From Crossaster papposus (lineage: Eukaryota > Echinodermata > Asteroidea > Velatida > Solasteridae): 64,000 nucleotides of DNA. The stretch lies in assembly GCA_037893245.1 (NCBI GenBank), contig JBAIAA010000441.1, positions 1,550,001 to 1,614,000 of the forward strand, in the 5' to 3' direction. The position numbers and the translations under genes are program-made. Below, piece by piece: positions 2,980 to 53,296 of this stretch; position 1 is the stretch's first letter; each line of letters starts with the position of its first letter. A model generated the notes under the pieces. That model searched no databases and was not told the origin of the DNA. It saw nothing but the letters and a program-made list of their open reading frames with translations.

Positions 2980-5900
2980 GTAAGAATCACTGTTAGGTCC
3001 AATGGGATTCAAACAACATTCTCTGCAGTAATTGTGGTCTCCGTATGCTGCGTTATACTACTACTAGCGCAGCATACGGGCCACACTGTATTGTGAGGCT
3101 AAGTTTCAGGAAGCATAGGCTAGAAGTTGCAGAACTGGACATGAAAGTCAGAAATCTCATGCGTCTTAATCCAGTTATAGTTAGAATAATTGCATGTTAG
3201 AACATTTGAATAATTATTTAGTAAGTTAACCCCTCAAGTGTTAGCTGGAGATCGACTTGGTTAAGATCAAATTCTCGAATCGTGAAATAGCACTCGTCTG
3301 AACATTGGAGACAAAACAATAATACAGAGTAACATTCGTTTTATCTCGAAAAGATCGCTGTGGTACTCATGCTTCGACAATAGTATTTTAATTTTAAAAT
3401 AAAACGATTATACTCTTAATTGCATTGTCCCCATTTTATATTACTTTGGGAATGACAGAAATTGCAATACGAGAATAATACAAAACATTGGGAAATGTCC
3501 GTGCTCCCGCACGCCCCCCCCCCCCCCCCTAATTTCCCTCAGAGACCTTTTTGTTTGAGGGTAGCGTACTAATGTATAGGCCGTGTTTGCACTGGTGTTT
3601 TTGTTTCTCTTTGAAAAAATATATTGAGTAAATCCTTTTATGTATTCAGTGTTACTAAATGACAATGAAAACAATGTGTATTTAAAAAAAAAAATTATAA
3701 CATCACATTCCACTGAATTTCGAAAAACAACGTCTCTCTCAGATTCCCGTTCACACACAAACTCGAGCGATATATGGGTATGTTTTGTAGTGTACACATT
3801 TAAAAACATAACAATAAAAAGACACTTAATGAATTATTATTGAAATACATTACTTGACTGCATGTACGTAAATAACAGTCTCAATCATTCTGTAAAATCA
3901 TTGCAATCGTTCTCAAGTTAAGAAAAGTGGTGTATACAACCTCTAATATTTGGAGTAAAAAATGGGACTTCCACCAATCAGGGGTTGTTGCGAAATTATC
4001 CTCGGTGATTATATTTCCAGGAAAATTCCAACGTGTTGATTACAAACTCGAACACGAAAGATACAAGCCAAGTAGTCTGGTTTCCTAACCCGATAATTTC
4101 CTGACACAACATTGCTTTGTTTCGTCTGAGGGAAGTCAGCGTACCAGACTATACAAGAACAACATTTGTATTGGTTTTTCCAGCATTTATAATCATATGA
4201 ACACAAAACGTCAGCGTCGCAATATTTACTATACAATCCAAATCCCCTAACCCATCCATTTATGAAAATTACAACAAAATCAAATGGTGTATACAACCTT
4301 TAATACTTGGAACCAAAAAATGGGAAATCCACCATTCGGGGGTTGTTGCGAAATAATCCTCGGGGTTTTTTCGGGGGAATTCCCACTTTTTCTTTACAAA
4401 CTGATGGCGCGAATGTTGCAACGAACCAAAACTTTGATGTTATCGCCATTAAACAGCATTGTGGGTTGTGAATAATTCGGAACCGGCAATCGGTTGGGGT
4501 GGGGGTTTGGGTGGGGGTGGGGGTGGGGGGTGGGGGGAATTCGTTGTCTCATTTTGATCACCACAGGATTTTCAAAATGTAAAACAAATTGCCACAAGTC
4601 AAAGCAGTCGTAGTGAATTATGTCGTACTCTTGTTAGAAGAGTTCGTAGGCATTCATAGAGTCGGAAATGGCAAACAATTATCACGAAATATCACTACGA
4701 CCTTCGTTGTCTCATTTTGATTTTCAAAATGTTACACAGTCACGCAGGCAGTCACGTACGTCACGTAAGCGGCGTTCGACGTCTGCAAATCCTGCATAAT
4801 TAAAATACCCACTCTTCAAATAATGGACATGCTTCTGTGAAATATTTGTAGCCCTTTCCAAGTTGTTTTCTCGCTAATACTCTTCGATTCTTTTATGATA
4901 AAATCTTCTACAAAACTATGTTTATGTCTAGACCCACTGACTATAACTCCTCTTTTTCAAATTTTGGATTTAGCTTGTCGTACTAGAGCCCTACGCAAAA
5001 CAATAAACAATATGCAAAATCTCCTACATGCATCTAACAAAAGTCGCCAAAACCATGAAAAATACTCAACAAAATACCTCAAAATCGTCTTCTATTTGTG
5101 TCCAAGATCAACTTCCGGGGCTTCGGTGATATTCGCGAACAATTCCTGACCTACAAATCAAGACGGTATTAAAAGTAGTTTGCACTGTTGCTCGCCATCT
5201 TAACAATTAAACCAAATTCTGACGAATGCAGTGGCCCTGATGGGACATAATCGGTGGTGAATATTTGTATGCGACGTTGTGAATTTATTTACAAATAGTT
5301 GTAAAAAAAAATTGCGGAGTCATAATTGTTCACGACGTGGCAAATATATTCACTAGTTGTGAAAAATTAACGATGCCACCAAATACTTACGACCAGTCGT
5401 AAATGTTTAATACATTGCAAAAAATAAACACCAATGATTATGTCCCGTCAAGGCCACCATAGGTGCGACAAAATTTGGTTTCATTTTCAAGTGTCAATTC
5501 AATTCAATGTTAGATTTGTTTGCCCTTCGTCTACGTGTATTTACACTGCTGAGTGTTGTTCCAAGGGGTTCTTTCGCAAATCGAAAACAATCCCTGACTC
5601 GGGTGGGACTCGAACGTATAACCTCCTGCTTTCTAGTGCAGATGTCTTACCTCTCAACCACCGAGATAGCCGTGACTGGCTGGCTGGCTAGCTAGCAGAC
5701 TCGAATCCGATTAGCAGGGTGTATCGCAACCAAATGTTTCATAAAATGAATTTGCGTCGGAAGATGTAAATCCAATATCAGATTTCTTTGCCCTTTGGGG
5801 CAACACTGACACAACAGTGTAAATACACGACAGTGAATGACAACACATCTAATACTGAAAGAACAATTACCGTAACTTGATTTGCTCTATTTTGTATCTT

Positions 5901-8900
5901 GCAGAATGCCACTACTGAAGAACCACCCAAGTTCTCAACCAAAGTGCTGTCTGCAGTGGAGACGCAACCACCTTCCTCTACCATTGCTGCCGAGGAATAC
6001 AGTGGTGGTTGTAGTCCGAACTGTGTCGAATGCCTTGGGCCAGCGGAAGGCGAGTGTACCGAATGCAACGAAGGGTTCAGCCTGTCTTTGGTGAGGGGAA
6101 CTGGCCAGGGAATGTGCCACCCAACTCCGTTCGCCGGCGTGGGAGGCGTCCCTGGCTTTATCGCAATTGTTGCCGCTGTTCTGGTCATCTTGCTGGTGGC
6201 GACTTTCTGTTATCGCTTATGTTGTGTAAACACGCTTTCGGTGAGTTTCAAGATCTATATAGGTTTTCCCGGCTATTAAAACAAAAATTACTACAAATTC
6301 ACCAAATCTTACATTAAATTTAGTCCGATGAAAAACATTACACGCTTTAGTCATTTATCATTCAATTTCAAATGTTGGTCACTCTATTTAAGCATTGTTT
6401 CGGGAATATTCGCCATTACAGATCAAATTTGTCCAAGATGTTGCTCAGACAAATTTGATCTATAATGAGGAATAATTCCGACCTGGTGTTTAAAAAAAGA
6501 TGACCAAACTTTGAAATTGAATGATATAAAGTGACTAAATTGGTTTGGTAAAAGCCTGCGAATTTTTGTCTCGGACAAAATTGAATGTGAGAGTTGGTGA
6601 ATTTGTATAAAACATGTTTTAAAATAGCCAGGAAAACACAAACAGTCACATTAACTATCGGAGTTGAATAGGCCTAAATTAAAAGGTGATATACAACATT
6701 TTCTTTTGCTGTAATTTTCAGAAATGTATAGATTTGGCGGTTAATAGTTTATGACAAATATTGTCTCAATGACCTGTGGAAAGTGTTGTGTTCATGGATG
6801 CTAACAACCGTAAAAGCAATTTCCGTTTTTGTAGTCTGGTTTTTTGACCCAATACCAGAGACAAAGTGGTGCAATTATAGACGTTGGGAAAAATGTCAGG
6901 AAACCAGACTAGCTGCCTTAAAACTGGTATTGTTTTCCTCTGTCTTTGATAGTTTGTCTTAACAGCTACGTATGAATTACTTTCCATTCCCTTCTATTGA
7001 TCATGGAGGAATAAGGGCTGATGAGCAAAGTTTTGTCATTGTAAATAAAACCAAAACTTCCGTAAATTGGTCGTTTGTTGCACATATATTACGTAAAGTG
7101 GATACAAATCACCTCGTGATCGCACCACAGAGCATCTGGATTCCAAAATTGTTCACGGGCCCTTCAGCGGTCCCCGGACCCCCACGCCGTAATTGGCTTC
7201 GGGCTTCGCGATCGCTGGAGTCAAGTTTAGAATAGGTAAATGATACGACTCCACGACCCCCATCGCAAAAAAACAACAATAACAACATATTACAATATAC
7301 GAACCACTGCCTGACGCCGGTTGAAAACGAATGCCGTTTTTCTTGCTTTTTTCAGCATCCATGATTGTAAAACTTCGAAAAGGCCAGTTATTAACGATAT
7401 TTTCTATAAAATACAACCCCCCAAATCCACCCATTCATGATAATTTTAAGCAATTACCAATGGTGTATTCTACCTTTAACTCTGCCTGAAAATCATTGGT
7501 TTCATATAAACTCTTACATTGTTGAAGTCAATTGCAGGGCTGCAATTATCTGATGACATAATTCACATTTTAACTTCAGAGTTCATATAAGTTTATGTCA
7601 CGGTTTTGCCATAACCTGGTCGATATTCTGTCACTAATTATGGCATTTACATAATTTCAAAATTCAAAATAATTTCTCCCTGTCAGGAAATGACCTATAG
7701 TTGCTTCAATATAAAATTGTCAATACATGTTAGGAGCCTCTGATTGCCTTTTTTGAAAACTTCTTGTCTTGTAGAACGACTATAGAATGCAGTAAGACGA
7801 ATGGTAATTATTTTACTGTCAACCTGCTTTAAAGTTGTAATCCAAGCAATAATAAATCACCTAATTGCAAGCGTAGGAAAGAAAGTGTAACTTTAAGAAG
7901 GAAAGAAGTTAACCTCCCGAGCCAGAAAAAGATATTTACTAAGAAAAGCAAGTCCAGTCTAATTTTCTTCAACAACAACAAAACTTCTGAGTATTACTGT
8001 TCCCCCAAGCCTTGCTTCACTCAATCTTTCTGTTTTCGTGATTTCATTACACGGCGGAGTTTTGATTTTTTCTTGGATTGCGATTTCACAGGTTCAACTT
8101 CTTTATACAATTATGTAATTGGAATTAAACAAAATTAATCCATAGGAAAAGAGAAATTATCCAGAAGAAAACGTTGAAACTTTGTAATAATATATCCATT
8201 GAGACGTAAGATGAAGACAAATTGTTGAATCCGGTGCCATTTTATAGGGTTTTATTCCATGTATACACACAATTCAACTTTATCAATGAATGCTTTTCTA
8301 ACATTTCTGTTTTGTTTCTTTACATGGCTCATCAGTCACGCATTGGTGCACAGGTAAGTGTAAATTCGATTCGCCTTCACTTTTTAACTTCGGAGTTCAT
8401 ATAAGTTTATTTCACGGTTTTGCCATAACCTGGTCGATATTCTGTCACTAATTATGGCATTTACATAATTTCAAAATTCAAAATAATTTCTCCCTGTCAG
8501 GAAATGACCTATAGTTGCTTCAATATAAAATTGTCAATACATGTTAGGAGCCTCTGATTGCCTTTTTTGAAAACTTCTTGTCTTGTAGAACGACTATAGA
8601 ATGCAGTAAGACGAATGGTAATTATTTTACTGTCAACCTGCTTTAAAGTTGTAATCCAAGCAATAATAAATCACCTAATTGCAAGCGTAGGAAAGAAAGT
8701 GTAACTTTAAGAAGGAAAGAAGTTAACCTCCCGAGCCAGAAAAAGATATTTACTAAGAAAAGCAAGTCCAGTCTAATTTTCTTCAACAACAACAAAACTT
8801 CTGAGTATTACTGTTCCCCCAAGCCTTGCTTCACTCAATCTTTCTGTTTTCGTGATTTCATTACACGGCGGAGTTTTGATTTTTTCTTGGATTGCGATTT

Positions 8901-11900
8901 CACAGGTTCAACTTCTTTATACAATTATGTAATTGGAATTAAACAAAATTAATCCATAGGAAAAGAGAAATTATCCAGAAGAAAACGTTGAAACTTTGTA
9001 ATAATATATCCATTGAGACGTAAGATGAAGACAAATTGTTGAATCCGGTGCCATTTTATAGGGTTTTATTCCATGTATACACACAATTCAACTTTATCAA
9101 TGAATGCTTTTCTAACATTTCTGTTTTGTTTCTTTACATGGCTCATCAGTCACGCATTGGTGCACAGGTAAGTGTAAATTCGATTCGCCTTCACTTTTTA
9201 ACTTCGGAGTTCATATAAGTTTATTTCACGGTTTTGCCATAATCTGGTCGATATTCTGTCACCAATTATGGCATTTACATAATTTCTAAACTCAGAAGAA
9301 TTTGTTACTGTCAGGAAGTGACATAGTTGCTTCGATATAAAATCGTCAATACATGTTAGGAGCCTCTGGGTGCCAAGTACATTCCTGGATCCTGTCTTGT
9401 AGAACGATTATAGAATGCATTAAAACGAATGGTAAGGATTTGACTGTCAACCTGTTTTAAAAAGTGTAAATTTAAAAAGGAAAGAAGTTAGCCTCCCCAG
9501 CCAGAAATAAATATTTTACAAAGTTTATTTTGCATACCGGTTGCATGTGTTCAAAACCAAGTTTATCCCAAATGTTGAAAACATTTTAAGACGATTCCCT
9601 TGGAATACCAACAATAGTATGAAATCATCAGTTGTTTTTATTGTATAAATACACTGATTAATGATGCCTTGTAGATTGGCTACCTTGTGGTTCAGCGCTG
9701 TTGTTCGTCAGTATCGATCGCTTTCCATTTTGCCGCATACATACCTACGCAGTTCATTAATCTTAGTCGCAACCGAACGATTATAGAATGCAGTAAAGCG
9801 AATGGTAAATATTTCACTGTCAACCTGCTTTAAAGTTGCAACCGAAACATTTCGATACGACACGAAAACCTAACATATTTACCTGGAAAAGTCTCTGAAA
9901 AGTGGCCGAACGATCACAACTTTGTGCCATGCCATGTTTGAGTTCTCGTTGCATACAGGTATGAGTGAATATAGAACCAACTATTTAATACTATTATGAT
10001 CAATACATGATCAATTATTTTGTCAGGAAACCAGACTAGCTGCCTTGTTTGTAACTAAAAACTAGTGTTTCTTTCTCTGTCTTTGATAGTTTGTCTTTAC
10101 TCAGTTTTAGCTATACGTATAACTTACATTCCATTCGCTTCTACTGAAATTGAATGGGCTGAAAACGAACCCAATGTGCTTTTTCCGATATTTTGTTCCT
10201 TTTACTCACGATAATAATATGGGCTGGCCCTCCCTCTCATAAATCACCCAACTGCACGCGAAGGGAAGAAAGTGTAACTTTAAAAAGGAAAGAAGTTAAC
10301 CCCTGAGCCAGAAATAGATATTTACAAAGAAAAGCAAGTCAAGTCAAATTTCATTTAACAACAACAAAAACTTCTGAGTATTATTGTTTCCCCAAGCCTT
10401 GCTTCACTCAATCTGTCTGTTTTCGTGATTTCATTACACGACGGAGTTTTGCGGGGAAAAGAGTCTGAAAAGTGGCAGAACGATCTTCAAATTTTTTTGA
10501 AGGACTTTGTGCCATGCCAAGTTCTTGTTGCACACAGATATTAGTGAATATAGAACCAACTGTAATACTATTATGATCAATACACGATATGAATACGACA
10601 TTTTTAGTATTATTGGTTAAAAGTTACCAGCCAATAATCCCCAGTTTGCTTTTAACTTTTTATCCGTTTCGGTTGTCAGATAAAAACATAATTTCCGAAT
10701 GCAATATAATTTCGCTCTGTCCGAAACTTACATCACAAGTTTAAATATAAATGGTCATTAAATTGTATGAACATCTGAATGATCAAGTACACCCTTTGAC
10801 GCTGCCTTGAAGAATAAAAGAAATGACAAAATGTCACCGTCAACCAGCTTTAAACATCCAACAAATATATCGTTGTCTTAGAAAGATCGAGATTGTCGTG
10901 ATGCGACTGTTGACACGGCGACTGCGATGAGGAGTTGTCTGTCGTTTGAGCTCCTTTTGCATAAAACAATAGGGAATAGAATCAATCATAAATATGACCA
11001 ACACACTATATAAATATGATAAGGTTCGTTTTATTGATTGCGAGCTTACCAAATGTAGTTTACTGGGATTCCAAGTAACTACAGACAGGGACGTAGCGAT
11101 TAGGGAGAGAGTGGGTGGTCTCACACATTCCCAATAATTTCTCTCGGTCGGCATTTCGAGCCCCAGTCGGCAACTGACCTGTACCACATAAACTCAGTCG
11201 GCAAATGGGCCACCAAATTAATAATTTGGTGGCCCATTTGCCGATTGAGGCTCTAAATGCCGACTGAGTATTCTTTCCCTGCCCATCTTCATTTTTTTTT
11301 TACGACTTTGTGCCATGTTGCGACCCCCGCAATATAACATATTTTCCCATCTTGTTTTATTTAATACAGGATGAAGACGAAGGCGTACCTGCATATGTAA
11401 GGACAACTCGTTTTATTTCTTTGGAGGGTGCAGCTGTCTATATATCTCAGTCAGCCAAACACCTATGTTCACCCTGCCACTTAGTTTTTTGAGCATGCCA
11501 CTGCGCATGTTAATACCGGGCCTGTCGAAACGAAGTGTTTAGGCCATAGTCATAATTATTTTGTAGGCCCTAACTAGCACCAATTTCTAAGCTTTGACTG
11601 GTAAAGCGGGTGTCACACATGATAGACCTAAACTCCCGATCAGCGCACAACCTTCACGATCTAAATTTGTTTAAATCGCGAGGAGAACGTAGGAAATGTC
11701 GAACCAAAATAACAAATGTCACGAGGTGAAGTCCAACTCACGTTTGTTAAGAACTATACACTCGTGTATCGCTCTGAAAGGTTTTGAGTGGAACGCCACA
11801 CTCCCATCGCTCCGACCATGTCCCATCATTAATTCCACTTTTTAACCCTCTCATGTGACCGATCACTCTTCTTATTATCTTCAATTATTCATGCGCAATA

Positions 11901-14900
11901 CTATACCAATGAGTCCGGATTTTATAAAATATGAAATTCGTGCTAAATTAAAACCAGACGTCAAAATATTGGGCAAATGTCCTCCAGGCGATCAGGGTAT
12001 CACTGGGGTTGCACTGGCTCCCTGTTGAACAAAAAGTCAAACACAAACATTGTCTGTTCATTTACAAAATACTGAATGCAATGGCTCCAGTGTATTTATC
12101 CGATGCTATCGAGATCTATTACTCCCGGTCGAAGTGGTCTTCGTTCCTCGCAACCATGACCGGAGCACCGAAATTATACAACAGCTTGCCTGAGACTGTG
12201 CAATCCTCAAGCAGCACACAGATATTTAGGCAAAAGCTAAAGACCTTTTTATTTAGAGAGCCCTTTTGAGCTTAAACTTCTTTGTTCATGATACATATAT
12301 CAATGTGCAACATTAAAACTCGCATCATGTATTTGCTATATTCTGCTTGCGGACAGTTACAGTTTTAGTTGTGTATGCAAAAGCGCCATGAGCGCTCAAC
12401 TCATCCTACCACTGTATCGTTTGTGCACGTAATGTTTTCGAAAGTTCTAATGACGAGAACAGTCGACAAGTGTAAGTGTAGATCAGTGTATGCTATTTTA
12501 TTTTCGTAATAGTATATATTTATTGAGACGTTAGATGAAGACAAAGTTTTGAATCCTGTGCCATTTTCTTGGTTTTTATTCCCTTTATACACAAAATTAA
12601 ACTGTATCAATTAATGTTTGTCTAACATTTCTGTTTTGTTTCTTTACAGAGCTCATCACGCATGCGTAATAGGGTAAGTGTACATTCGATTCGCCTTTAC
12701 TGTTTAACTTCATAGTGTTTATTTCACGGTTTTCTCCATATCTGGTCGATATACTGTCATCAGTGTATATGCGATTTTATTTCGTTAGTTTAACTCTGCC
12801 TGAAAACCATTGGCTCCATATAAACTCTTACATTGTTGAAGTCAATTGCAGGGCTGTAATATTAATTCTTTTGGCCCAATGTCGTGCAAGACCAAACTCC
12901 AAATTAAACTACAGTGTTAATACATTTTACCGAAATGTCCAGTACACTCATGGATCCCCTGTCTTGTAGAACGATTATAGAATGTATTGAAACGAATGGT
13001 AATTATTTCAACCTGTCAACCTGCTTTAAAGTTTCCACCGAAACATTTCCATGCTGCACGAAAACATATTTACCATAAAACATATTTAGTTTGTTTTTAC
13101 TACGTATGACTTACTTTCGATTCCCTTACATTGAAATTGAATGAGCTGAAAACGAACTCAATGTGTTTTTTCAGATATTTTGTTCCTTTTACTCACGATA
13201 ATATGGGATGACCCTCCCTCTCTGACTATAGGAAGCCTGTGGTGAGCGTGCGTGTGTATGTATGGGCGTCCGGGGCCGAATTTGTATCCCAGTCCGCCCC
13301 TGTTGAGGTCCTTTTGCGTACACTAAGAGTAAATAGAATCCACCATCTAATTGTATGATCAATACTCGAATAAAGATAATTTATGTGTCGTTGATTGCAA
13401 GTTGCCACCCATGTTTTGTTGTGTTCGTTCAGTCGTATTATTATTATTAAGGTATTATTTTGTCCACTCTTGTCAAATACGTTTTCTTACTATTCTTTAA
13501 TTTTGTTTTCTGTTCGCAGCATAACATTTGTTTTGAGTGTATCAATGTAGTTGATATACTGAGATTCAAAATAACCACAGACTCAGTGAAAATGCTACCA
13601 ACATCCAACAAATGTCGCTGGGTCAAAATGATGGAGCTTATCTTGATATGACTGTTTACACACAATGTCTCTGGCGATTAGGAGTTTTCTGTTTAGAATC
13701 ATTCCCTCATCTGTTTTATTGAAGTATCAGTTGAAAATGTGAGATGAATACAAAGTGTTCAATTATAAGCCATTTTCTTGATATTTCGTTTCTATATACT
13801 CACAATTAAAGTTTATCAAATAATGTTATTCTCATATCTCTTTTATTTCTTTACAGTCCGTACACTCGTCGTACCCGGTAAATGTACATTCGATTCTCCT
13901 TCATTTTTAACTTCGGAGTTCATATAAGTTTATTTCACGGTTTCGCCATAATCTGGTCGATATTCTGTCACCAATTATGGCACTTACATAATTCCCAAAT
14001 TCAGAAGAATTTTTTCCTGTCAGGAAAAGACATAGTTGGTTCGATATAAAATCGCCAATACATGTTAGGAGAGTCTGGGTGCCTTTTTAAGATGCCAAGT
14101 ACACCCCTGGATCCTGTCTTATAGAACGACTATAGAGTACATTAAAACGAATGGTAATTAATTCACTGTCAACCTGCTTTAAAATTGCAACCGAAACATT
14201 TCCATGCTGCACAAAAACCTAACATATTTACCGGGAAAAGTCTCTGAAAAGTGGCCGAACGATCTTAATTGTTTTCATAACTTTGTGCCATGCCATGTTT
14301 GAGTTCTTGTTGCATACAGATATTATTGAATATAGAACCAACTATGTAATACTATTATGATCAATACACGATCAATGATTTTGTCAGGAAACCAGACTAG
14401 CTGCCTTGTTTGTAACTAAAAACTATTGTTTCTTTTCCTGTCTTTGATAGTTTGTTTTTACTCATAGAGGTTCAGCTACGTATGACTTACTTTCCATTCT
14501 CTTATATACTGAAATTGAATGGGCTGAATACGAACCCAATGTGCTTTTTCTGATATTTTGTTCCTTTTACTCACGATAATATTGGGCTGGCCCTCCCTCT
14601 CATAAATCACCCGATTGCAAGCGAAAGGAAGAAAGTGTAACTTTAAAAAGAAAAAAACTTAACATCCTGAGCCAGAAACATATATTTACAAAGAAAAGCA
14701 AGTCCAGTCAAATTTCCTTCAACAACAAAACTTCTGAGTATTACTGTTTCCCCAAGCCTTGCTTCACTCAATCTCAATGTTTTCGTGATTTTATTACACG
14801 GCGGAGTTTTGCGTTTTTCTTGGAGGACGATTTTACAGGTTGAACGTCTTTATACAATTATGTCATTGGAATAAAAACAATCCAGAGGAAAGGAGGAAAT

Positions 14901-17900
14901 ATCCAGGAGAAAACGTTGAAACTTTGTAATAATATATCCATTGAGACGTAAGATGAAGACAAAGTGTTGAATCCTGTGCCATTTTCTAGGGTTTTATTCC
15001 CTGTATACACACAATTAAACGTTATCAATGAGTGCTTTTCTAACATTTCTGTTTTGTTTCTTTACATGGCTCATCACGCAAGATTGAACAGGTAAGTGTA
15101 CATTCGATTCGCCTTTACTGTTTAACTTCAGAGTTCATAGAAGTATATTTTACGGTTTTGCCATATCTGGTCGATATACTGTCATCAGTGTATATGCGAT
15201 TTTTCTTCGTTATTTTAACTCTGCCTGAAAATCATTGGTTTCATATAAACTCTTACATTGTTGAAGTCAATTGCAGGGCTGCAATATTATATCTTTTGAC
15301 TTTATGGCATGCAAGACCAAACTCCACTTTAAACTACAGTGTTAATCAATGTTACCGTGTCAAGTACACTCAAGTACACTCAAGTACAAGTACAAATACA
15401 CTCATGGACCTGGTCTTGTAAAACGATTATAGAATGCATAAAAACGAATGGTAATTATTTCACTGTCAACCTGCTTTAAAGTTGCAACCGAATCGTTTCC
15501 ATGCTGCAAAAAAAAACATTTTTACCGGGGAAAAGAGTCTGAAGAGTGGCAGAACGATCTTCATTTTTTAACGACTTTGTGCCATGCCATGTTTGAGTTC
15601 TTGTTGCACACAGATATTATTGAATATAGAACCAACTATGTAATACTATTATGATCAACACACGATCAATTATTTTGTCAGGAAACCAGACTAGCTGCCT
15701 TGTTTGTAACTAAAAACTAGTGTTTCTTTCCCTGTCTTTGATAGTTTGTTTTTACTCATAGAGCTTCAGCTACGTGTGACTTACATTCCATTTCCTTCTA
15801 CTGAAATTGAATGGGCTGAAAACGAACCCAATGTGCTTTTTCCGATATTTTGTCCCTTTTACTCACGATAATATGGGCTGGCCTTCCCTTTCATAAATCA
15901 CCCAACTGCACGCGAAGGGAAAAAAGTGTAACTTTAAAAAGGAAAGAAGTTAACATCCTGAGCCAGAAATAGATATTTACAAAGAAAAGCAAGTCAAGTC
16001 AAATTTCATTTAACAACAGCAAAACTTCTGAGTATTATTGTTTCCCCAAGCCTTGCTTCACTCAATCTTTATGTTTTCGTGATTTCATTACACGACGGAG
16101 TTTTGCGGTTTTTTTTTTTTTTTTTTGGGGGGGGGGGGATTTTACAGGTTCAACTACTTTTTACAATTATGTCATTGGAATTAAACAAAATTAATCCATA
16201 GGAAAAGAGAAAATATCCAGAAGAAAACGTTGAAACTTTGTAATAATATATCCATTGAGACGTAAGATGAAGACAAAGTGCCATTGTCTTGGTTTGTATT
16301 CCCTTTATACACACTATTACATTTTATCAATGAATGTTTTTCTAACATCTCTGTTGTTTCTTTACATGTTTTATTCGCCAAAGAGGAGCATGCAGGTAAG
16401 TGTACATTCGACTCGCCTTCACTGTTTAACTTCGAAGTTCAAGATATTTCACGGTTTTTCCATCTGGTCGATATACTGTCATCAGTGTATATGCGATTTT
16501 TCTTACTAGTTAGTGTAACTCTGCCTGAAAATCATTGGTTTCATATAAACTCTTACATTGTTGAAGTCAATTGCAGGGCTGCAATATTATATCTTTTGAC
16601 TTAATGTCGTGCAAGACCAAACTCCACTTTAAACAACAGTGTTATTCAATTTTACCAAAATATTGGTGAAATTGTATAAAAAATGTTTTAAAATTAGTAT
16701 TACTGTTCCCTCAAGACTTGCTTCACTCAATCTTTCTGTTTTCGTGATTTCATTACACGGCAGAGTTTTGCGTTTTTCTTGGAGGGCGATTTTACAGATT
16801 CAACTCCTTTATACAATTATGTCATTGGAATTATTAAAAAATTCAGAGGAAAGGAGGAAATATCCAGAAGAAAACGTTGAAACTTCGTAATAGTATATAT
16901 TTATTGAGACGTAAGATGAAGACAAAGTTTTGAATCCTGTGCCATTTTCTTGGTTTTCCCTTAATACACACTATTACACTTTATCAATGAATGCTTTTCT
17001 AACATTTCTGTTTTGTTTCTTTACATGGCTCATCAGTCACATATGCATGCATGGGTAAGTGTAAATTCGATTCGCCTTTACTGTTTAACTTCAGAGTTCA
17101 TATAAGTATATTTCACGGTTTTGCCATATCTGGTCGATATACTGTCATCAGTGTATATGCGATTTTTCTTAGTTAGTTTAACTCTGCCTGAAAATCATTG
17201 GTTCCATATAAACCCTTACATTGTTGAAGTCAATTGCAGGGCTGCAATATTATATCTTTTGACTTAATGTCGTGCAAGACCAAACTCCACTTTAAACTAC
17301 AGTGTTAATCAATGTTACCGAAATGTCAAGTACACTCATGGATCCCGTCTTGTAGAACGATTATAGAATGCATACAAACGAATGGTAATTATTTCACTGA
17401 TGTCAACCTGCTTTAAAATTGTAACCGAAGCATTCATAACTCACCCAATTGCAAGCGAAAGGAAGAAAGTGTAACTTTATAAAGGAAAGAAGTTAACCTC
17501 CCGAGCCAGAAATAGATATTTACAAAGAAAAGCAAGTCCAGTCAAATTTTCTTCAACAACAACAAAACTTCTGAGTATTATTGTTTCCCCTAGCCTTGCT
17601 TCACTTAATCTTTCTGTTTTCGTGATTTCATTACACGGCGGAGTTTTGCGTTTTTCTTGTACTGCAATTTCACAGATTTAACTTCTTTATACAATTATGT
17701 CATTAGAACTATATTAATTTAACAATCCAGAGGAAAGAAGAAAATATCCAGAGGAAAGAAGAAAATATCCAGAAGAAAACGTTGACACTTTGTAATAATA
17801 TATATACGAAGATGAAGACAACGTGTTGAATCCTGTGCCATTTTCCTGGTTTTTATTCCCTTTAAACACACAATTAAACTTTATCAATGAATGTTTAACA

Positions 17901-20900
17901 TCTCTTTTGTTCCTTTACAGGGCCCACTAGACGCGGGGCCATCGGTAAGTGTACATTCGATTCGCCTTCACTGTTTAACTTGGAGTTCATATAAGTTTAT
18001 TTTACGGTTTTTGCCATATCTGGTCGATATACTGTCATCAGTGTAAATGAGATTTCTTTTCGTTTGTTTAAATCTGCCTGAAAATCATTGGTTCCATATA
18101 AACTCTTACATTGTTCAAGTCAATTGCAGGGCTGCAATATTATTTCTTTTGTCTTGATGTCGTACAAGACAACACTCTATTTTAAACTGCAGTGTTAATC
18201 AATTTTACCGAAATGTCAAGTACACGCATGGATCCTGTATAATTATACTATAAGGAATATTTTCCCTCTTGAAATTAGCCTACATGGTCAATTCTGTTTA
18301 CGGGTTAGTAATAATCGTTAGAATGGCAGATAGCCCTACTGCCTGTAGAAGACTGGCTTTTGGAATAGTTATTGGAACACTGTGGTGGTAGTCCACTATC
18401 AAGTGATATGCAATTGCGTATCACCATAGGCTACGTACAAGAAGTATTAGCTAACCAGACGTGTTGTCAAGACGACTGTTTTCTTTGAGAGGCTGATGTC
18501 ATATGAAAATCAGACTCTTATGGAAATCAGACCTTTTTTTCTATTATTGGTTAAACCCTCTCACGTGACACATCACGCTCCTAATTATCTCTCCTTAATC
18601 ATGCGCAATACTACCAATGAGTCTGGATTTCATGGAGTCTGAAATTCATGCTACCCCGGATTTGCAAAAAGGAACGACTCTGTGTATTGAAAGGAAGGTA
18701 TATATGGCATGTTGGTACCTAAAATAGCTTATCTCAAAGTTGTTGTCGTAAATAATTCCAACGATTGTGGCTTGATCATCGACGTATCGATTACAAAAAC
18801 AGCACAATTGTTAATATTATCATTATAAAGCTCTCATATAAACACAAATATATTGCCTATTTGAGAGCTCAGTTGGTAGAGCACCGTAACTTCAATTCGG
18901 AGGTTACAGGTCTAAACCCCGTTCCAGTCAATTTCTTTGGTGCACGTTTAAGAATGAACAAAAAACACCACATTTTGCAGTTCCTCGTTTTTGTTTTCAG
19001 GAAACGAGCTTTGCTATAACAGCGGAGAAATCTGTGAATTCACAATCATCTCCAGGTACGTATATCCACGGATAATATTTACCTATATACGCTGTTTGAT
19101 ATGCGTCGAATGTTGGTGGAATCTTCTACAGGATGTCTCTAAAAAAGTATACCAATTTTAAAAGTTGTATTATTGAAAAACTACTGAATATTTTAGAAAA
19201 AGCCAAATGTATGTGAAAAGGGTAGAATGTTCTCTGTCTAATGGTATAAGGTTAATTATGTCATTGCCATGGATGACTAAACAAACAAGACATTTATGAA
19301 ATGTACAGAAATCAGCACTGAAATATTCAGTAGTTTTGCAATAATATGAATTTAAAAATGGGTATACTTTTTTTTAGAGACACCATGTATGTAGTCTGTA
19401 TTACGTTACAATGCAATGTCACAAATTTTTGAGGCAATTGTCAACTTTTTTTACAATGTACGAGGCGAATTTTGAACAGAAGGCCACTTAAATCACTAAC
19501 AGAGTGATTTTACTTAGTGGTTTAATACACTTTTAAAGGGTGGTTCATCATTTATGCAAATGCGAATGCGTTGCGAATTTGACGTCATAATAAACCATTC
19601 GCTGCGAATTTCGACGGTGCTGAAATGTGTTCAACTGGCTTTTTGCGCCAATTATGAACCGGGCTTAACGTACATGCATCATGATTTGTATTACAGACAG
19701 TTCGTCCGCTCTGCCAACTCTCCTGAAAAGGATCCTCGAGGAACACGACCAATTTGCCAAAGGATGCAGCGAAGAGACGCTGAGGAAGAACACCTTCCAG
19801 ATGATGTACATTGCAATCGGTTACTTCGACCATGAGGGTGGGAGCCTGTCCTTGTTCGAGTACAAAGTCCACCTGTACATCCCCCGCCGGGCACTACCCA
19901 AAGGTCGACTGCAGCAGGTGTTCATCTACGTCAACCCCAACGCGCCGACAGTTGACGGGGTCGGTCCGTCGGACTGTGTCCTGTCGCCGATGATCCAGTG
20001 CGGCCCAACAGGTCTGAAGTTTCTGGACAGCGTGGTGCTGTCTTACCCACACTTTGCCCAGGAGGGGAGCGGGTGGAAGTTGAACGTACAGTTGTGCAAT
20101 GACGAAGGAGGCTCGCCAAAATCCTGGAAGACTCTTGATGCAGACGACGACGGCATGCTGGTGTCTACCAAAGACCAGACCGTCGTACTCCTGATGAAGC
20201 ATTTCACAGGGGCAGCTTTAGTTGGCGAACCATCCGAAACCAGCACCAAAATAATGGAGGCAGGAGTGTTTGGGAGTCCCTTTGATCCGTCTGAGAAGCA
20301 CTATCCCTTCCGGATCCACCTCTGGAACGATGAACCAGTTGTAAAACAGGTAAACTCCCTGTTTCTTTGTTTTAAGGGTTGACACTTTTTATCTATAATT
20401 TTGGGGGAACAATGCAAGCGTCGGGACTATTTTGGTATTTTTGTAAATGTAATATCGCCCCAATCAAGGCTAAAAAGCCACTCTAGGCAAAAGGCTACAG
20501 AAAAAAGAAAAACAAATCACGAAAACTAAAAAAAGGAATTGATATTTCTCTTAGCGGTAGGATACACCATTGATAATTGCTTCAAATATCAGGAATGGGT
20601 GAATTTTGGGGGTTGTATTTTGGATGCCGAGAAAAAAGAAAAAAAACATGATTTTTGTTAATAAAATTCAATTTTTCGAAATAATTACAGGATATCTAGC
20701 GCAATAATTTTGCTGGATGCCTGGCATCATTATTTACTTTCAAATAGGCCTAACTACGATATTTCTTAGTAATTTGGTATTAATTGGTTTTCTCAATATG
20801 TGCAAATGGTGTATCTTCCCCAAAAATGCCAAATCATAAGAAGGGGGAAAATAACTACTGGGCAAATTGGTCCAAAGAGAAACAGACCGTGAAAAAAACA

Positions 20901-23900
20901 CGATTAGAGTATCTCTCTGTTCTATATCTCTACACAGCTAAAGTATATAGGTAAGAGGAAGCAGAGAGACTGGGTAAAGGAAAACACACTGACATTATTA
21001 TTCATTCATAAATACATGAGACAATAACCATTCGTATTGGTCAAGAGCTCGACACGTCGGTATGTTTAAACGACCGGTAAAACATGGCCCACAAAGTTGT
21101 TAACGCATTTTCGGTGTTAGATTATATTTGGAGTCCTATGAAGTCTGGTTCATGAACCTTTTATTTGTTGAAGTTTCACACGGCATGCGCAATTTTAGTC
21201 CATATATTAATAGTCCTCAATTACTCTGCAACACACATCACTCCATATCGAGCGTCAGATGGAACGCCCGCATCACAATGACACATACATGAGGTACATA
21301 CCTATATCTGGTTGAACCAAGATGGCGTGTGAGTACTAAAGACTGCGCAATAGTCGTAGCCTTGTTGCCATTTTGTGATTGGACAAATAACGCCGTTCAG
21401 CTAATGCATCAACTGTAAAATTAATAAATGACAAAAATAAATCAATGACAGTGATTGCGAGGTGCCGTTCCGTGTGTCTTTTTAGTTTTCTATATGGTGC
21501 AGCTCTGGATACCGCATATAATGTGTGGAATTAGAAACCATGCAGCGCGCAGTGCGAGCCTGCTGCATGCATGCTGAGCTAGCGCGCTCACTGGAGATAT
21601 GAAAACACCGCATCTCCAGCAAACGAACGTCGTTAATTGTTCAATCACAAAATGGCAACAAGGCTACGACTATTGCGCAGTTACTAAAGTACTAAGGTTG
21701 ACAGTGTTTTTTTTTTAACTCTTCTTTTTTGTTGTTTTGACTTTGTATGAATAGAACAAAATGTGGTTGGCCTGTATTAAATAATTCCATCAGTATAAAA
21801 CCGACTGATGGGATTGAGCATTAACACACCCAGGCCCATACTTGTAACTTAAAACCGAGTTAAATTTGAACATGGAGTAATTCGTAGGCAGCAAATAAAT
21901 ACTGAACATGAGCCTGTAAAGTTTAATTTGCTTTATTTATGCTGCTCAGAAAGTAACGGAGATGGAAAACGAAACTGGCTCCAAGCGGTTGGACGTTTAC
22001 CGATATCTAAAAGTGGGCAGATCAGGAGACGTACAGGCTGAAATCGAGAAAATCAAGCGTGGCTGGGAACAGGAAAACAAGGTAGTATACCAGCAAATCA
22101 GAGTATTATAGTTTCGGCACTTTCCCATGTCCGAAGTATAGCCTATGGCGCCGAGTGAAATTATAAAAACTCGAGGGACTACAATGCGGCAGCGTGCATC
22201 GAGTGCAGGATGGCTGAACATACTAATATCACTCGATCAGGAATAAGCCTATATTGAATATATTGCAATATTTTAAGTGAGGTAACTTTTTAATACAAGC
22301 TTGTTTTTAATTGCTTTTTCCCGTTATTATATCTTTGTCTTTTCACAGGCTTTAATTTGATGCATATAAGTATATTTGTAGACATTTTAAGTTTTACGAA
22401 CGTTAATGCGCATGAAGAGATTTTATGTCCGTTTTTCGACATTCACTTCCGAGCTCTCGATAAAATATCGTGATTTCTCTAACGCCCGAGACTGCCAACT
22501 CCCCGCAATTAGTACAACTTTGCTGTGTACGTCATTATCGAGTACGCTGCGCTGTGACTGTGTTGACGCAAATATCAAATGTTTTTGGCCCACAATGTAT
22601 TATAAAAACTCCAGATATAAATATATAATAGAAACACAAACTGTATGGTTAATCGTTTTTCAATTGAATCACGTAAAATAAAGGATCACAACGTTTATAC
22701 AGCATGTATCGCAATTGGGTTTAAAATTATTCCCGTTTTAAAAGAACACTTAAACAAAATATTTGTTTTCTTCTACAAAATAGAAACAGATAATACCTGT
22801 CGAAAGAATCTGGGAGTTACCAATGGACTCGGTGACCTTCAACCTTGAGCGCCGAAATGTGAACGAGGATCCTTATTGTGAGAGTTTCATATCCCAGTGT
22901 GGCACCGGAACGGAAGTCAAATCAAGCAGAGGAAGCTTTCGATTTACCATTATACCACCAAAGGTACGACTTAAGGGAGAAATCAGATAAAAATTAACAT
23001 GCATTCGGTGTACATTTTTAAAGCTTTTTTTTGAACGGGGCCGTATCGTAAGTCGGACGTCTCATAAGTCCAAAATAATCTCGAAATTATGAGGCGTCGG
23101 ACCTTTGGGGCGTCTGACCTGTGGGGCGTCGGACCTGTAAGCCTTAATATTTAATTGCGGTGAAATGTTGTCGGACCTATGAGGTGTCGGGCTTACGAGC
23201 GGACCCTTTTTGAATGCTTCCATTATGTTCCTATACTTCTTTCTATATTAGGCACTTTACTTCGCAATTCAGCTTCTCAGCGTTTAGCTCCCATTACAAT
23301 ATGGTTTTAGTCCACATGACACTTGCATTATAATGCTTGATTGTGTACACCTACTTTGGCTTATGAACAATTAAGTCTGAAAGTGTAAAATGTGCTGAAA
23401 AAAGGTATTATTTTATCAATTTTTTTCACAAAACAGAACAGATCGACACAACAGTCAAGCAAGCAGCGTCTGTGCAACATTTGCCAAAAGGTAAGTTTAA
23501 CAGATTGGAGAGATATTGACTTGTGGCAAAATGGCTTCGACCTCGTTATGTCCTAGTCACATTTACGCCGATTGTAGGAAATGCGCCCGCCGGCGAGCTT
23601 CTTGTATAACATCGCACCGGGAAATCGGGGAAATCTTACATGCCGCACGGGCTGCCGCCAACTTTTAACGCACAGTTATAATTTTCCGATGGCCGACAGA
23701 CTTTTTTTCGACCCAACTCATCGCATATTAACCGCACGGGACCCGTAAGGGAGCCGTCCAATAGCCTAACGGTCATCCCAAATTAAGAGATCAGGAAAGG
23801 CTCGGGGGCCACCTGGACCGTACGGTGTCCGGGGGTCCTCGTACGGGATACGTCCGGCCTCGTCTCGTTCACCTGGCGGGCTCCGCCCTGGCGAAAAACA

Positions 23901-26900
23901 TCGACTGGGTGCCTCAAGGCCTCCGTACCGTGCCTGGACGATGTTCGTAGGGCCACCCTCACCGCCCGGCGCCGAGGGTTATGCACGACTCTGCCTGGCA
24001 GTAGGGGTTGTTGCAGCGTAATCAAAGAGACAACTTCATGTGTTTTGCTTCCCAATAATCCCGGCTTATCTCTCTGGTAGACATAATGGATGTATTCAGG
24101 TAAAGTTGATATCAAAGTTGTGGTTTCTATATTGTACACCATGCTGGCTCTCTATAGTTAATCTGGATGACCGCTTGCACATACAAATATTCATGACGTA
24201 GGCTCATACTTTTTAAAATGCTCAGACACTGGACAACTGCCGGTACCCCGCCGGTACCCCGCCGGTTACCCCGCCGGTTACCAGCCGGTTGGATAGGTAC
24301 GTCTTTCTTTACAGTACATAAAGGAATTCGGAAGTCTGATAAACGTAAATATTAAGTTTAATGAGCAGAAGCACCCAACCTCGTCCCCATTATTTTCAAC
24401 CTTGTTTCCAATAGTAATTGGAAACTGTTGTCCATTATCTTGATTCGAAACAACAACGGCGCGCCGTTGATATTTTGACAACGATGCGCGCACACGAATT
24501 TGAATATGCGATGTCAATTATCACGTTCTCTTCACTTCAAAACAATCCCCACTTGTCCAGTTTGCTTTTAGATTAATTATTTAATGTGATAATGAATACT
24601 GGCTGATCTCACGCGCGACGAACTAAGTATGTTTACTACAATCACTAATTTAAAAAAAAACAGGCACCCGACTTTACCTAACTTGCATGCAGATCCAAAC
24701 CATCTTTCGAATAACAGGGTGAGAAACCAGGGCCCAATTAAACGGAATTGCTAAGCACACAAATTTGCCGAGCACCAACAAGTCTTGCTCCGAAAAAACA
24801 GGTTACCAGCCAAAACTCTACGTGCTTTTTATGCTAAGCAAAAATAAGCTGACTACCAGTCACAAACAACATGCCTTACCGGAACATTTGGTTGGTCACC
24901 CTGTTTTTGCCAAAGAAGAATGTTCACCATGCTGATCAATTTTGTTTTGCTTATTAGCAGCTTCATGAAATTGGCCCCAGGTTTAGATATCATTATTTTG
25001 TGACTATTTAGTATACACTTACATCAAAATTCTCTGTTGTCCATAGCAATTTTCTAGGGAAAGGAATATCAGTTTTTAGAAGGGTTTAAGACAAACTATC
25101 TTCCGTTTGTACACAAGTTGTATTTGTATTACGGTAAAAGATAAACCTTTGCAATGCATACTTGTTTTTGCATAGCTATCGATCATGTTTATTGATACAA
25201 CTGGACTGGACTTCTTAGATCCTAAACTTATTTATTTTGTTTTGTTTCCAGGATGAAGCCCCCGAATTCTGCGCTTCCTGTAAGGTGAATTAAGTCAGAC
25301 ATTTTGTTTCAGACGGTTTTGTCACCTTTCGCTAAATATCTTTTGTTTTTCTCCTAATTATCTCTGCTACATTGTTCTATAACAAATCGAATCTGTTTTC
25401 CTGAATTTGATACATTCTTGATAGTCTTAGACATACCTAGAAGCAACAAAACACTGTAAACCCACCGAACGTGAGCCCTTAAACGCGTGACAATTATGTA
25501 TAAACTGTTGCAAAAGGCGTTTATTTATGAGCTCAAAAGTTAAACCCCTTTATAGTGTATATGTGACCCAGCACGAGTAAACGAGACACTTTGAGGCAAA
25601 AATGAAAATTGAGATTTTGATTTTATCATTTAAAGCTAAACAAGCTTTAAATGATGAAATCAAAATCTCAATTTTCATTTTTGCCGCAAAGTGTCTCATT
25701 TACTCGTGTTGGGTCACATAAATGTACTGATAACGTATGTTGATTGATTATATTTTTAGGGGAAGATAAAGTATTCTCAAGTTCGCAAGGATCCACAGTC
25801 TTCGGATGGTGATTATGGAGGCTTGTCAGAGGAGATGGAGGGCGCTCTCTGTCGACAACCAAACACGACCGGAGCGTTGGCGGAGCTAGCAGGTGTCGAC
25901 CACAACTCCATAAAAACGGAGGATTCCGTAAAGATCTTCTTTGCACGTGAAAGGGCGCAAGGCCTCGAAGACAGGACATCCATAAAGCGTCTGCTGGATT
26001 CGTCTCCTGAAATCGCCAAGCCCATTTCGAAGAAACTTCGAGTGACAGGTATATAGACAAAAATATCGGGTGAAAATGACATTTCTCCGACTCACTTTAT
26101 GGGTTATTTTTTAAATCTGGGAAAACGTCAAATTTTGACCTAGACAAAATTAGTGTCAGGGAAAATAAAAGCCTATAGTTATTGGTTCACCGGAATAACA
26201 ACATACAATATTGTTTCATATGTTGTATACAAGACTAATTATTGTTTTATTTGCTCTTGCTCTAGAAACTTTGCCCGAAGGGGGTTCCATATCGACGGAT
26301 AGGCTAACCGTGAGTATTATGCTTGACAGTTTCAACTGGTCAATATAAAAAGGAAACGTACATGTACAACGTTTCATTTCGGTCAATCATTGCGGACGGA
26401 CAATGATCTGTTACGATGATTGTTTTTTGCTCTTTTATGTAATCTGTCTCTTTTCTTGTTTCCAGGTCTCTTTAGCTTTATGATTTGTTTTCTTTTCAGT
26501 CGGAAATTGCTGACGAGAAATGTTTCCGTGGACTTGAAGAGAAATTGGGAAAGGAGTGGCAGCCACTGGCCACAGAGTTAGGCTTCACTCCGGAGGACCT
26601 GTACAAGATAACAGAGAACAACCAACATAACATTGGTGAACAGATATTTCAAATGCTTGTGAAGTGGAGGCAGCGATGTGGACAGTTGGATGGAAGCATC
26701 TTAGCTGGAGCTTTAACAAAGGTTGGGCTACATAATCTGGCACAGCAGTTCGAAGGTGAGATTTCTATTATCCGGCGAATACCTAGTTTTTGTATATATA
26801 TATTTAATCACCTTTATTCTGGTAAGGAAACCAACAAGGATCCCTAAAAACTGAAGCGCCGTTACGCACTCTAAAGATTTCTTCAGGCTTTCGAGTTGTA

Positions 26901-34668: not shown

Positions 34669-34675
34669 TGCTATG

Positions 34676-35067
34676 CACTATGAAAACACTATGAAAACAC
34701 TGTGTTCATACTGTGTTCATACTGTGTTCATACTGTGTTCATACTGTGTTCATACTGTGGAATCAAGTATGTTCACGCTATGAAAACACTATGACAACAC
34801 TATGACAACGCTGTGGGAACACTGTGATCACACTATTGGGGACACTGTGAAATCAGTATGTTCACGCTATGAAAACACTATGACAACATTGTGTTCGTAC
34901 TGTGGAAACACTGTGGAAACACTGTGGTCATACTATGAAAACAAAACAATATGAAAACACTATGCAAACACTATGAAAACACTGTGTTCATACTGTGGAA
35001 TCAAGTATGTTCACGCTATGAAAACACTGTGACAACACGTTGTTCATACTGTGGGAACACTGTGGTC
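34676..35067. repeat. GAAAACACTATG satellite, second block
   Basis: Continues the array split by the LINE. It includes four to five ttcatactgtg units in a row near 34705-34760, then the same variant order as 29100-29290 (ggggacactgtgaaatcagt). Confidence 0.9.
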
Positions 35068-35109: not shown

Positions 35110-36381
35110 ACGTATACCCCTCGCACTTTGTTCAAGATGGTGTAACGATTGACAGTAACAAAGACATTGCTGATGCATTTAATGAGTATTTTGTAAATGT
35201 GGGCTCTAGACTTGCAAGTAATCTACCATTATGTAACACCACATTTGAATCCTTTCTTCGTGATCGGGAGGCGAGTTCCCTTTTTTAAAATCCTATTACG
35301 TCAGAAGAAATTGTAGACATTCTTAACACAATTCCTAATGGAAAGGCCCCTGGCTTTGATGGTCTAAGTGCTTTTGTTATCAAACAGGCTAAGTACTGTT
35401 AGCAAAGCCACTTGCTTATATCTTTAATGAATCTCTAGTTACAGGTGTTTTCCCCAATGGTTTAAAGATAGGTAAAGTTGTACCAATATATAAGAATGGT
35501 GACAAACATAATATTGGTAATTATAGACCTATTACAGTTTTATCTACATTCTCAAAGGTTTTTGAAAAAATAATATACAACCGTCTCATAACTTTTATTA
35601 ATAAACATAATATTTTGTCCGAATCGCAATTCGGCTTCAGAAAAAAGCGTTCAACTGAACTAGCAACGTCGTATGTTATTCATAAATTACTCAAAGCCAT
35701 AGATGATGGTTACATTTCTATTGGTATTTTTCTTGATCTCTCTAAGGCTTTTGACACAGTTAACCATGACATTTTAATTTGTAAACTTGAAAATTATGGT
35801 ATTCGTGGTGTAGCCCTTAATTGGTTTAAAAGTTACTTATCTAATCGAAAACAATTTGTTTCATATAATTCTGTAAATTCAAATGATCAATCCATCCATT
35901 GTAGCGTTCCCCAGGGTTCTACACTAGGCCCTCTTCTATTTATTCTGTATATTAACGATATTCCTTGTGCATCTGACATTATATCATTCTGTTTATTTGC
36001 CGATGACACAAGTTTGGTGTACAGCCATAACAATGTGGATACAGCTATTCGGGTTTTTAATATTGAACTTAACCAACTAACTAATTGGCTTTTAGCAAAC
36101 AAATTGTGTATTAATCTGCTGAAATCTAACTATATGATATTTTCTTCAAGACAACAGAAATATACCCAATCCGTCCCACTAGTTTTAAATGATGTAAATT
36201 TAAACCGTGTCACGAATACTAAATTTCTAGGAGTGACAATTGATGAAAATCTTACGTGGAAGAAACACATTTGTGATATCTCTAGCAAGATTTCAAAAAC
36301 TACTGGTATAATGAACCGCTTAAACATTTTCATTCCAAGCAACATTTTAGTAATTCTTTATAATTCTTTAGTTCTCCCATA
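35110..36381 (+). pseudogene. LINE 2 reverse transcriptase, 5' part
   Basis: Starts within the region before the RT (FNEYFVNVG) and has PNGKAPGFDGL and NYRPITVLS in different frames because of stops and a frameshift between 35285 and 35560. From 35615 a clean frame holds SQFGFRKKRST, IGIFLDLSKAFDTVNHD, SVPQGSTLGPLLFILY, CLFADDTSLV and FLGVTIDENLTW. It has no endonuclease, so the copy is 5'-truncated. Cut at 36382 by the Ngaro element. Confidence 0.85.
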
Positions 36382-36382
36382 G

Positions 36383-38717: not shown

Positions 38718-38799
38718 TATCCATACTGGACCTATTAGGTAAATGACAGCAAATAACTGGGACTTAAGATAAACGTTTAACTGTGATTAATCAAGTGTT

Positions 38800-39711: not shown

Positions 39712-39719
39712 TTCATTCT

Positions 39720-53212: not shown

Positions 53213-53296
53213 ATGGCGTGGACAAGATCAGGAGCTAGGCTATTTGTGATGGTGGTGATTGGGTTTACACCGTTGATGTCAGTCGGCAAAGCCCAG
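53213..53296 (+). CDS. Gene 2 exon 1: signal peptide
   Basis: 28 codons, one residue different from gene 1, ending CAG before gtaagt, phase 0. The donor (gtaagt) is closer to consensus than that of gene 1 (gtaaga). Confidence 0.8.

Follow-up and report, generated by a model that had tools for sequence, protein, structure and literature searches.

A 64-kilobase (kb) window of DNA from the sea star Crossaster papposus (the whole stretch analysed here, one assembled sequence) contains two paralogues of a receptor that joins a small ectodomain to a cytoplasmic ZU5-UPA-Death module (the UPA part being probable), and the long intron behind the membrane-spanning exon raises the question of whether this receptor can exchange the peptide that lies directly beneath the membrane. 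In the first paralogue, gene 1, this juxtamembrane intron covers 12.8 kb between 6240, the end of the membrane exon, and 19001, the start of the next constitutive exon, and holds nine candidate phase-0 microexons. Judging from the genomic sequence, we estimate a probability of about two-thirds that the intron has grown by module duplication and that some of the better segments are usable cassette microexons under fast diversification. What carries this reading is a comparison among related modules, in which the coding segments have changed about three times more than the introns that flank them and have come near the level of unrelated sequence. This excess is stronger evidence than the tests of reading frame and splice sites, and it is new relative to them.

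Using a gap-free scan anchored on donor sites, we found eight homologous modules in gene 1 and five behind the membrane exon of gene 2. In each, the donor block is conserved, and so is an upstream stretch that ends, small changes aside, in TTTCTTTACA; the ninth gene 1 candidate, X, has flanks outside this module family. On the plus strand of gene 1, module and splice scoring placed m1 at 8336-8353 (18 nucleotides (nt), SRIGAQ, with a weak, shifted acceptor) and its identical tandem duplicate m2 at 9150-9167, and splice scoring yielded X at 11370-11396 (27 nt, DEDEGVPAY, acceptor 7.6, donor 6.0), m3 at 12650-12673 (24 nt, SSSRMRNR, strong sites), m4 at 13857-13877 (21 nt, SVHSSYP, strong acceptor, donor 7.4), the doubtful m5 at 15083-15091 (9 nt, IEQ, acceptor 0.9) and m6 at 16384-16395 (12 nt, RSMQ, acceptor 3.4), m7 at 17037-17054 (18 nt, SHMHAW, weak, shifted acceptor) and m8 at 17921-17944 (24 nt, GPLDAGPS, strong sites). 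The gene 2 candidates, likewise on the plus strand and obtained by splice scoring, all have strong sites: A at 58711-58734 (24 nt, GPLGDGPS), C at 60932-60958 (27 nt, GGYRDVPSQ), D at 61909-61929 (21 nt, LPPIPPP) and E, identical to D, at 63589-63609. The remaining gene 2 module, B (59343-59364, plus strand, from the module scan), has an intact donor and no acceptor AG.

The original prediction had described conserved acceptor and donor blocks around stop-free segments of 18-27 nt, all multiples of three, in gene 1 and from 58711 in gene 2. Homologous modules are indeed present in both genes, five of them in gene 2. The 13 modules and X together give 14 segments, of which 13 have an AG acceptor, and all 13 are multiples of three without a stop in phase 0. 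Their lengths (9, 12, 18, 18, 18, 21, 21, 21, 24, 24, 24, 27 and 27 nt) are those of microexons, taken as at most about 27-30 nt, but two of the nine gene 1 segments, at 9 and 12 nt, are shorter than had been claimed. The blocks also turned out to be less uniform: five of the nine gene 1 segments carry TTTACAT and weak acceptors, and in module B TTTACAC replaces TTTACAG, so that the segment lacks its AG and would begin with TGA. B is probably a recently dead exon and, because several modules are weak or dead, not every segment can be taken as a usable exon. The gene model agrees with the prediction that the membrane exon ends and the linker exon begins in phase 0.

The SRIGAQ copies m1 and m2 and the LPPIPPP copies D and E are recent tandem duplicates, and an assembly error in tandem repeats is possible above all for these near-identical copies. 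Some modules have mosaic flanks; m4, for instance, is nearest to C upstream and nearest to m2 downstream. The encoded peptides range in net charge from -4 to +3 and include the acidic DEDEGVPAY (-4), the basic SSSRMRNR (+3) and the proline-rich LPPIPPP. When three modules were used as BLAST queries, they had no match within the 64 kb outside the juxtamembrane introns of the two genes; we had considered a transposon-borne repeat and rejected it, as the three queries matched only the two arrays. By eye, both arrays also contain a similar element (13520-13585 and 61690-61735) in which an acceptor-like CGCAG is followed by an open frame (HNICFECI) with no clear donor, perhaps the remnant of an older exon. 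A palindromic, foldback-like element lies just intronic of the membrane exon in both paralogues (6292-6607 and 57032-57406).

That the flanks resemble each other and the peptides do not had been part of the original prediction, and this could be quantified. Pair tests left out m2 and D as identical copies and X as non-homologous. Among the 55 pairs of distinct modules, we considered the 29 whose distal upstream introns match at 86% identity or more. In these, the segments between acceptor and donor differ by 0.40 on average, compared with 0.06-0.27 in 17 successive 24-nt pieces of the flanks, and the exon exceeds every flanking piece in 16 of the 29 pairs and fails to do so in 13. For five disjoint module pairs, which are not strictly independent by descent, Fisher tests gave a combined p of 8e-8. 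In the same five pairs the exons differ by 0.37 on average, compared with 0.12 for pseudo-exons slid along the flanks in overlapping windows, and none of 200,000 draws was as high. The 3' distal flank of C, non-homologous past the donor, was left out of the m4-C comparison in the disjoint-pair tests and kept in the 29-pair profile.

The six strong module exons behave alike: 14 of their 15 pairs differ by 0.30-0.50, their neighbouring upstream 100 nt by 0.09-0.24, and the difference between exon and upstream 100 nt is significant at 0.05 in ten of the 15. Shuffled sequence differs by 0.44 on average (5th percentile 0.35), and 13 of the 15 strong pairs are within this range. This pattern suggests diversifying selection on the cytoplasmic juxtamembrane peptide.

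Splice-site scores were computed with matrices of textbook frequencies that had not been fitted to this species. On this scale, m3, m4, m8, A, C, D and E have acceptors of 9.5-12.8, compared with 0.5-11.6 (median 7.7) for 11 constitutive acceptors; with X included, eight of the 13 segments that have an AG reach or exceed roughly the constitutive median. The donors of these eight better segments score 6.0-11.5, compared with 4.4-13.0 for constitutive donors. Since TTTACAT replaces TTTACAG in m1, m2, m5, m6 and m7, these five must use a downstream AG. They may still be used, because weak scores (0.5 and 1.6) also occur in two of the constitutive acceptors. Taken together, the sequence would give eight good candidates, three possible ones (m1, m2, m7), two doubtful ones (m5, m6) and a dead one. 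The proposal that all segments are functional was rejected in view of the dead module B and several weak acceptors, and U12-type splicing at TTTACAT was rejected as having no basis.

We then asked how often comparable segments arise by chance and scanned both strands of the whole window for acceptors scoring at least 4 and donors scoring at least 7.5 that are 3-60 nt apart. At a combined score of at least 19, the scan returned six module exons, each of them open and in frame, and four pairs elsewhere, none of them a multiple of three; X and m4 fall under the scan thresholds because of their donors. In 11 distinct exons (m2 and E left out, as also in the GC count), frame 0 has no stop in 75 codons, and the other two frames have one and five stops in 64 codons each. 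The GC content of seven strong exons is 61%, compared with 34% in their flanks, a value reached in none of 20,000 draws; constitutive coding sequence has 51%. In the aligned flanks of ten modules (m2, C and D left out), gaps are multiples of three in eight of 31 events, which is the chance level. The length pattern weighs less because the modules share ancestry, as the original prediction had cautioned; allowing one length change per length class, we estimate its chance probability at roughly (1/3)^6 to (1/3)^7. Given related modules and short exons, the frame, stop, GC and gap tests are each modest alone.

The alternative that fares best is that the array is non-functional, a duplicated intron stretch that once held an exon and whose segments are now pseudo-exons with an exonic look by descent. 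One module is dead, four others (one in two copies) have lost the presumed ancestral acceptor by mutation, and recent duplicates are present, all of which this alternative would accommodate. However, neutral segments are expected to diverge at the intron rate, not about three times more, and they should lose frame and strong sites, yet eight segments retain both. We therefore regard it as unlikely, though it deserves to be taken seriously.

The end of the membrane exon offers a second view of the same slot. Except for their last 12 or 13 codons, the membrane exons of the two genes share about 97% identity, and the flanking introns are about 92-98% identical. The hypervariable end, FCYRLCCVNTLS at 6205-6240 on the plus strand of gene 1 and SCCCLWVFIKMRR in gene 2 (paralogue alignment), comprises the last 36 nt in gene 1 and 39 nt in gene 2, a length difference of one codon, and covers the last helix residues and the start of the cytoplasmic part. 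In this tail, a stretch picked after the alignment had been viewed, 12 of 38 positions or gap events differ (32%), compared with 11 of 292 (4%) elsewhere in the exon (p 5e-7) and with 25 of 401 in the adjoining introns, taken over 200 nt to either side (p 1e-5). Among 914 windows across the exon and the neighbouring 300 nt of either flanking intron, the tail is the most divergent (0.31). For both exons together, nonsynonymous divergence (dN, 0.073) exceeds synonymous divergence (dS, 0.025). The tail is hypervariable, certainly coding and in the same slot as the segments, and therefore makes expression of the microexons more likely. Up to the tail, 97% of aligned codon positions are unchanged between the paralogues, so that the ectodomain is nearly constant and variation is concentrated in the cytoplasmic slot beside the Death-domain module.

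The tail also bears on a purely mutational origin of the excess, by hypermutation, by replacement of segments or by gene conversion that homogenises the introns up to the exons. Such an origin would involve no selection and is compatible with splicing of the segments. It would fit the mosaic 5' and 3' flanks and the strong pairs that differ as much as shuffled sequence does. A hot spot would nevertheless be expected to yield frameshifts and stops, yet all 13 segments with an AG are open and in frame, and the same process would also need to have hit the end of the membrane exon. We consider this origin improbable, somewhat more so than a non-functional array.

Several observations weigh against an array of usable microexons and have to be set beside the above. 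The segments are known from genomic sequence alone; that exons are included, that inclusion is regulated and that selection rather than mutation lies behind the variation is what we infer. The disjoint pair m8-A, the same exon in two genes, shows no excess (0.17 compared with 0.11-0.13), leaving the four other pairs to contribute, and five of the 15 strong pairs are non-significant at 0.05 (m4-m8, m4-A, m4-E, A-C and m8-A). The tail was chosen after inspection, the intron window 5605-5640 nearly matches its divergence with 0.27, and dN without the tail (0.033) is not below dS (0.022). The downstream-AG acceptors of m1, m2, m5, m6 and m7 score 3.8, 3.8, 0.9, 3.4 and 3.8 and are below nine of the 11 constitutive acceptors. 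With weak acceptors in five of nine gene 1 segments and one of five gene 2 modules dead, decay is common. Chance pairs of lower quality are also frequent: the scan found 93 elsewhere (36 plus-strand and 57 minus-strand pairs, not counting six module exons and two constitutive exons of 33 and 55 nt), of which 23 are multiples of three and 13 of those open; one of the 36 plus-strand pairs uses the donor of the constitutive exon 19001-19055. The best protein from the sea star Patiria (P0001) is a single sequence with no isoforms listed. Finally, a protein search with gene 1 residues 29-175, a region that P0001 shares, returned none of 919 candidates at E <=0.01; this negative is weak because P0001 has that part and yet went unmatched.

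The original prediction had named Dscam as a known case of mutually exclusive or combinatorial splicing from tandem exon arrays. Choice of a single microexon per transcript through competing intronic RNA pairings, as in Dscam, would be a special form of the favoured reading. Homologous tandem exons with conserved flanks speak for it. On the other hand, donor-to-donor spacings of 630-3506 nt are far above steric limits, and with all exons in phase 0 and multiples of three the frame does not force exclusivity. Dscam clusters use pairing between docking and selector RNA elements; in a crude scan of five flanks for docking-site duplexes, the energies of module flanks paired with the two ends of the intron were no better than those of the flanks paired with control introns. 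A mutually exclusive mechanism finds no support here, and we rate it as very unlikely. The confidences that we attach to the favoured and the rival readings overlap, some rivals being special forms of, or compatible with, the favoured one.

Under the favoured reading of a module-grown intron with cassette microexons, tandem and mosaic duplication would have expanded the intron, with modules mostly 0.6-1.7 kb apart, in each of which a conserved acceptor region and a conserved donor enclose a single phase-0 microexon. Among X, m3, m4, m8, A, C, D and E, some at least are likely to be usable as cassette exons, and each of these better segments would insert 7-9 residues after the membrane helix and ahead of the linker that leads to ZU5-UPA-Death. 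The frame would be kept whatever number of microexons is included or skipped, be it a single one, several together or none. Birth by duplication would have been followed by rapid diversification of the coding part and by some death (B, probably also m5 and m6). The inserted peptide would presumably tune how the receptor couples to the membrane or to partners in the cytosol; as the peptides are acidic, basic or proline-rich, they could alter the docking of partners or the position of ZU5-UPA-Death against the membrane. If the segments are spliced, the output of a death receptor would be tuned by splicing, which raises the question of which intracellular factor selects for a changing juxtamembrane peptide. 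Only tentatively, and with the odds against it, do we go further and propose an inward-facing repertoire, in which a near-constant ectodomain would be combined with a juxtamembrane peptide drawn from a fast-evolving, frame-neutral microexon array that outpaces its own introns; effectors or proteases of pathogens that target this slot might be the driving force.

The gene 1 model, built manually on splice signals, covers the gene as far as 26755. It consists of 11 exons with consistent phases that form a single open frame of 705 residues. The Pfam listing of the product (three families at E up to 1) contains ZU5 (1.4e-17) and Death (8.6e-12), and UPA scores 17.1 bits against a cutoff of 27, in a region covered by the PDB sequence match to UNC5B. 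The cytoplasmic domain of UNC5B (PDB 3g5b) is the best solved relative by sequence, and the original description of the protein as a Death-domain receptor is thereby upheld. On the plus strand, exon 1 (2896-2979, ending in phase 0) encodes a probable signal peptide, MAWTISGARLFVMVVIGFTPLMSVGKAQ. Exon 2 (5905-6240, gene model and alignment with Patiria P0001, ending in phase 0) encodes the short Cys-containing ectodomain, the membrane helix and the start of the cytoplasmic tail. It is followed by the linker exon (19001-19055, beginning in phase 0 and ending in phase 1), the ZU5-domain exon (19697-20349, with KHFTGAAL towards its end) and the Death-domain exon (26500-26755), the last two located by gene model and Pfam. 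Signal peptide and helix were judged by eye, and the topology of the slot was deduced from both. Gene 2 is modelled as a paralogue with exon 1 at 53213-53296 and exon 2, encoding ectodomain and membrane helix, at 56678-57007 (ending in phase 0, variable end 56969-57007), both on the plus strand; beyond membrane exon and array, its remainder is outside the window.

In a search of a large protein database, which scored the 7994 candidates with most words in common, the closest protein to gene 1 was Patiria miniata LOC119735181 (58% identity over 96%), and the remaining seven matches came from Patiria miniata or Acanthaster planci. The predicted structure of P0001 (based on nine sequences) has low confidence with a mean predicted local distance difference test score (pLDDT) of 59.8; the stretch from helix to ZU5 (residues 108-136) stays below 50, which is compatible with a disordered linker. 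In a fold search with this model, UNC5B and ankyrin-B were the two PDB entries matched at E below 0.001. Between UPA and Death, two small phase-0 exons of gene 1 (23437-23490 and 25252-25284) encode a CxxC...CxxC insert, CNICQKDEAPEFCASC, that appears zinc-ribbon-like by eye and has the counterpart CYRCRNDEARSICPSC in P0001.

Elsewhere in the window, an intron of gene 1 holds a 78-nt inverted repeat (25560-25720) that is 95% complementary around a 5-nt spacer. Between the two genes lie retroelement remains (29898-34677 on the minus, 35393-36382 on the plus and 38800-41327 on the minus strand), comprising two reverse-transcriptase elements and a tyrosine-recombinase/reverse-transcriptase pair resembling DIRS elements. 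An open reading frame adjoining the recombinase (38217-38786, minus strand) has a GDSL-lipase-like match (1.2e-8), and a weaker match of this kind, below the cutoff, was found in the open reading frame 32752-34677.

Turning to known systems, the ZU5-UPA part of the receptor invites comparison with proteins that cleave themselves. PMC3210808 reports that PIDD cleaves itself at HF/S, downstream of its ZU5 domains, equates Leu-677 of UNC5B with the phenylalanine of the CARD8 SF/S cleavage site and names a Cys-663/Cys-670 pair. Gene 1 has HF followed by Thr (KHFTGAAL, exon 19697-20349) at the place of the PIDD site, and in our alignment its F is opposite the UNC5B leucine which, counted from the Cys pair, is Leu-677. 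In all nine homologues (eight sea-star proteins and one contig-derived sequence), H and F are invariant and followed by Thr or Cys, never Ser; the count was read from the sequences, with a regular expression matching eight of the nine, and the motif is absent from UNC5B. The receptor may cleave itself, with Thr or Cys acting as the nucleophile. In NLRP1 and CARD8, according to PMC8591160, a rapidly evolving cleavable stretch precedes ZU5-UPA (FIIND); these are no Death-domain receptors, and they vary between species, compared with an exon array within the starfish gene. Least likely of all is a pathogen-protease tripwire modelled on them, in which the peptide would mimic cleavage sites and a cut close to the membrane would lead to release or degradation of part of ZU5-UPA-Death: rapid evolution in the linker ahead of ZU5-UPA, the HF-Thr/Cys motif with its alignment to the UNC5B leucine and the third place of NLRP1 FIIND in the Foldseek list for P0001 (E 1.7e-3) are in its favour, but the nucleophile would be Thr or Cys instead of Ser, cleavage is only postulated, the protein is a membrane receptor with a Death domain and no CARD inflammasome, and the predicted structure is weak near the site (297-310 below 50). 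We keep the correspondence between tripwire and motif as a lead only.

With the UNC5 netrin receptors, the starfish receptor has the ZU5 and Death domains of the cytoplasmic module in common, and probably also UPA. UNC5 receptors carry extracellular Ig and TSP1 domains; neither was found in the gene 1 model by Pfam at E up to 1, where about 110 residues precede the helix and the hand-made model could lack an exon. Because the model contains no Ig or TSP1 domain, the starfish receptor is not a strict UNC5 member. A 33-nt alternative exon of UNC5B (exon 8) changes signalling, as described in PMC8358048; that exon is single and extracellular, whereas the starfish candidates are arrayed and cytoplasmic. 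In the Dscam-hv clusters of Pancrustacea, tandem exon duplication within a gene generates protein variants, as stated in PMC3364881. A tandem array of homologous exons, here 13 modules, is common to both systems, but the variable exons of Dscam are extracellular and mutually exclusive, and the starfish candidates are 9-27 nt long, frame-neutral and located between helix and ZU5. Schistosome micro-exon genes (MEGs), according to PMC10526429, encode secreted proteins, give rise to many isoforms and have 10 to 20 very short exons, whose lengths are mostly multiples of three and whose introns are long. Unlike these, the starfish gene encodes a 705-residue receptor with one microexon slot and ordinary exons elsewhere. 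Among the matches listed in our literature searches, titles and the openings of abstracts described no such array, with subscription papers sparsely covered. To our knowledge, the known exon-array systems, Dscam and schistosome MEGs, vary extracellular or secreted parts. Tandem microexon diversity as such is known; what would be new here is its placement on the cytosolic side of a death receptor.

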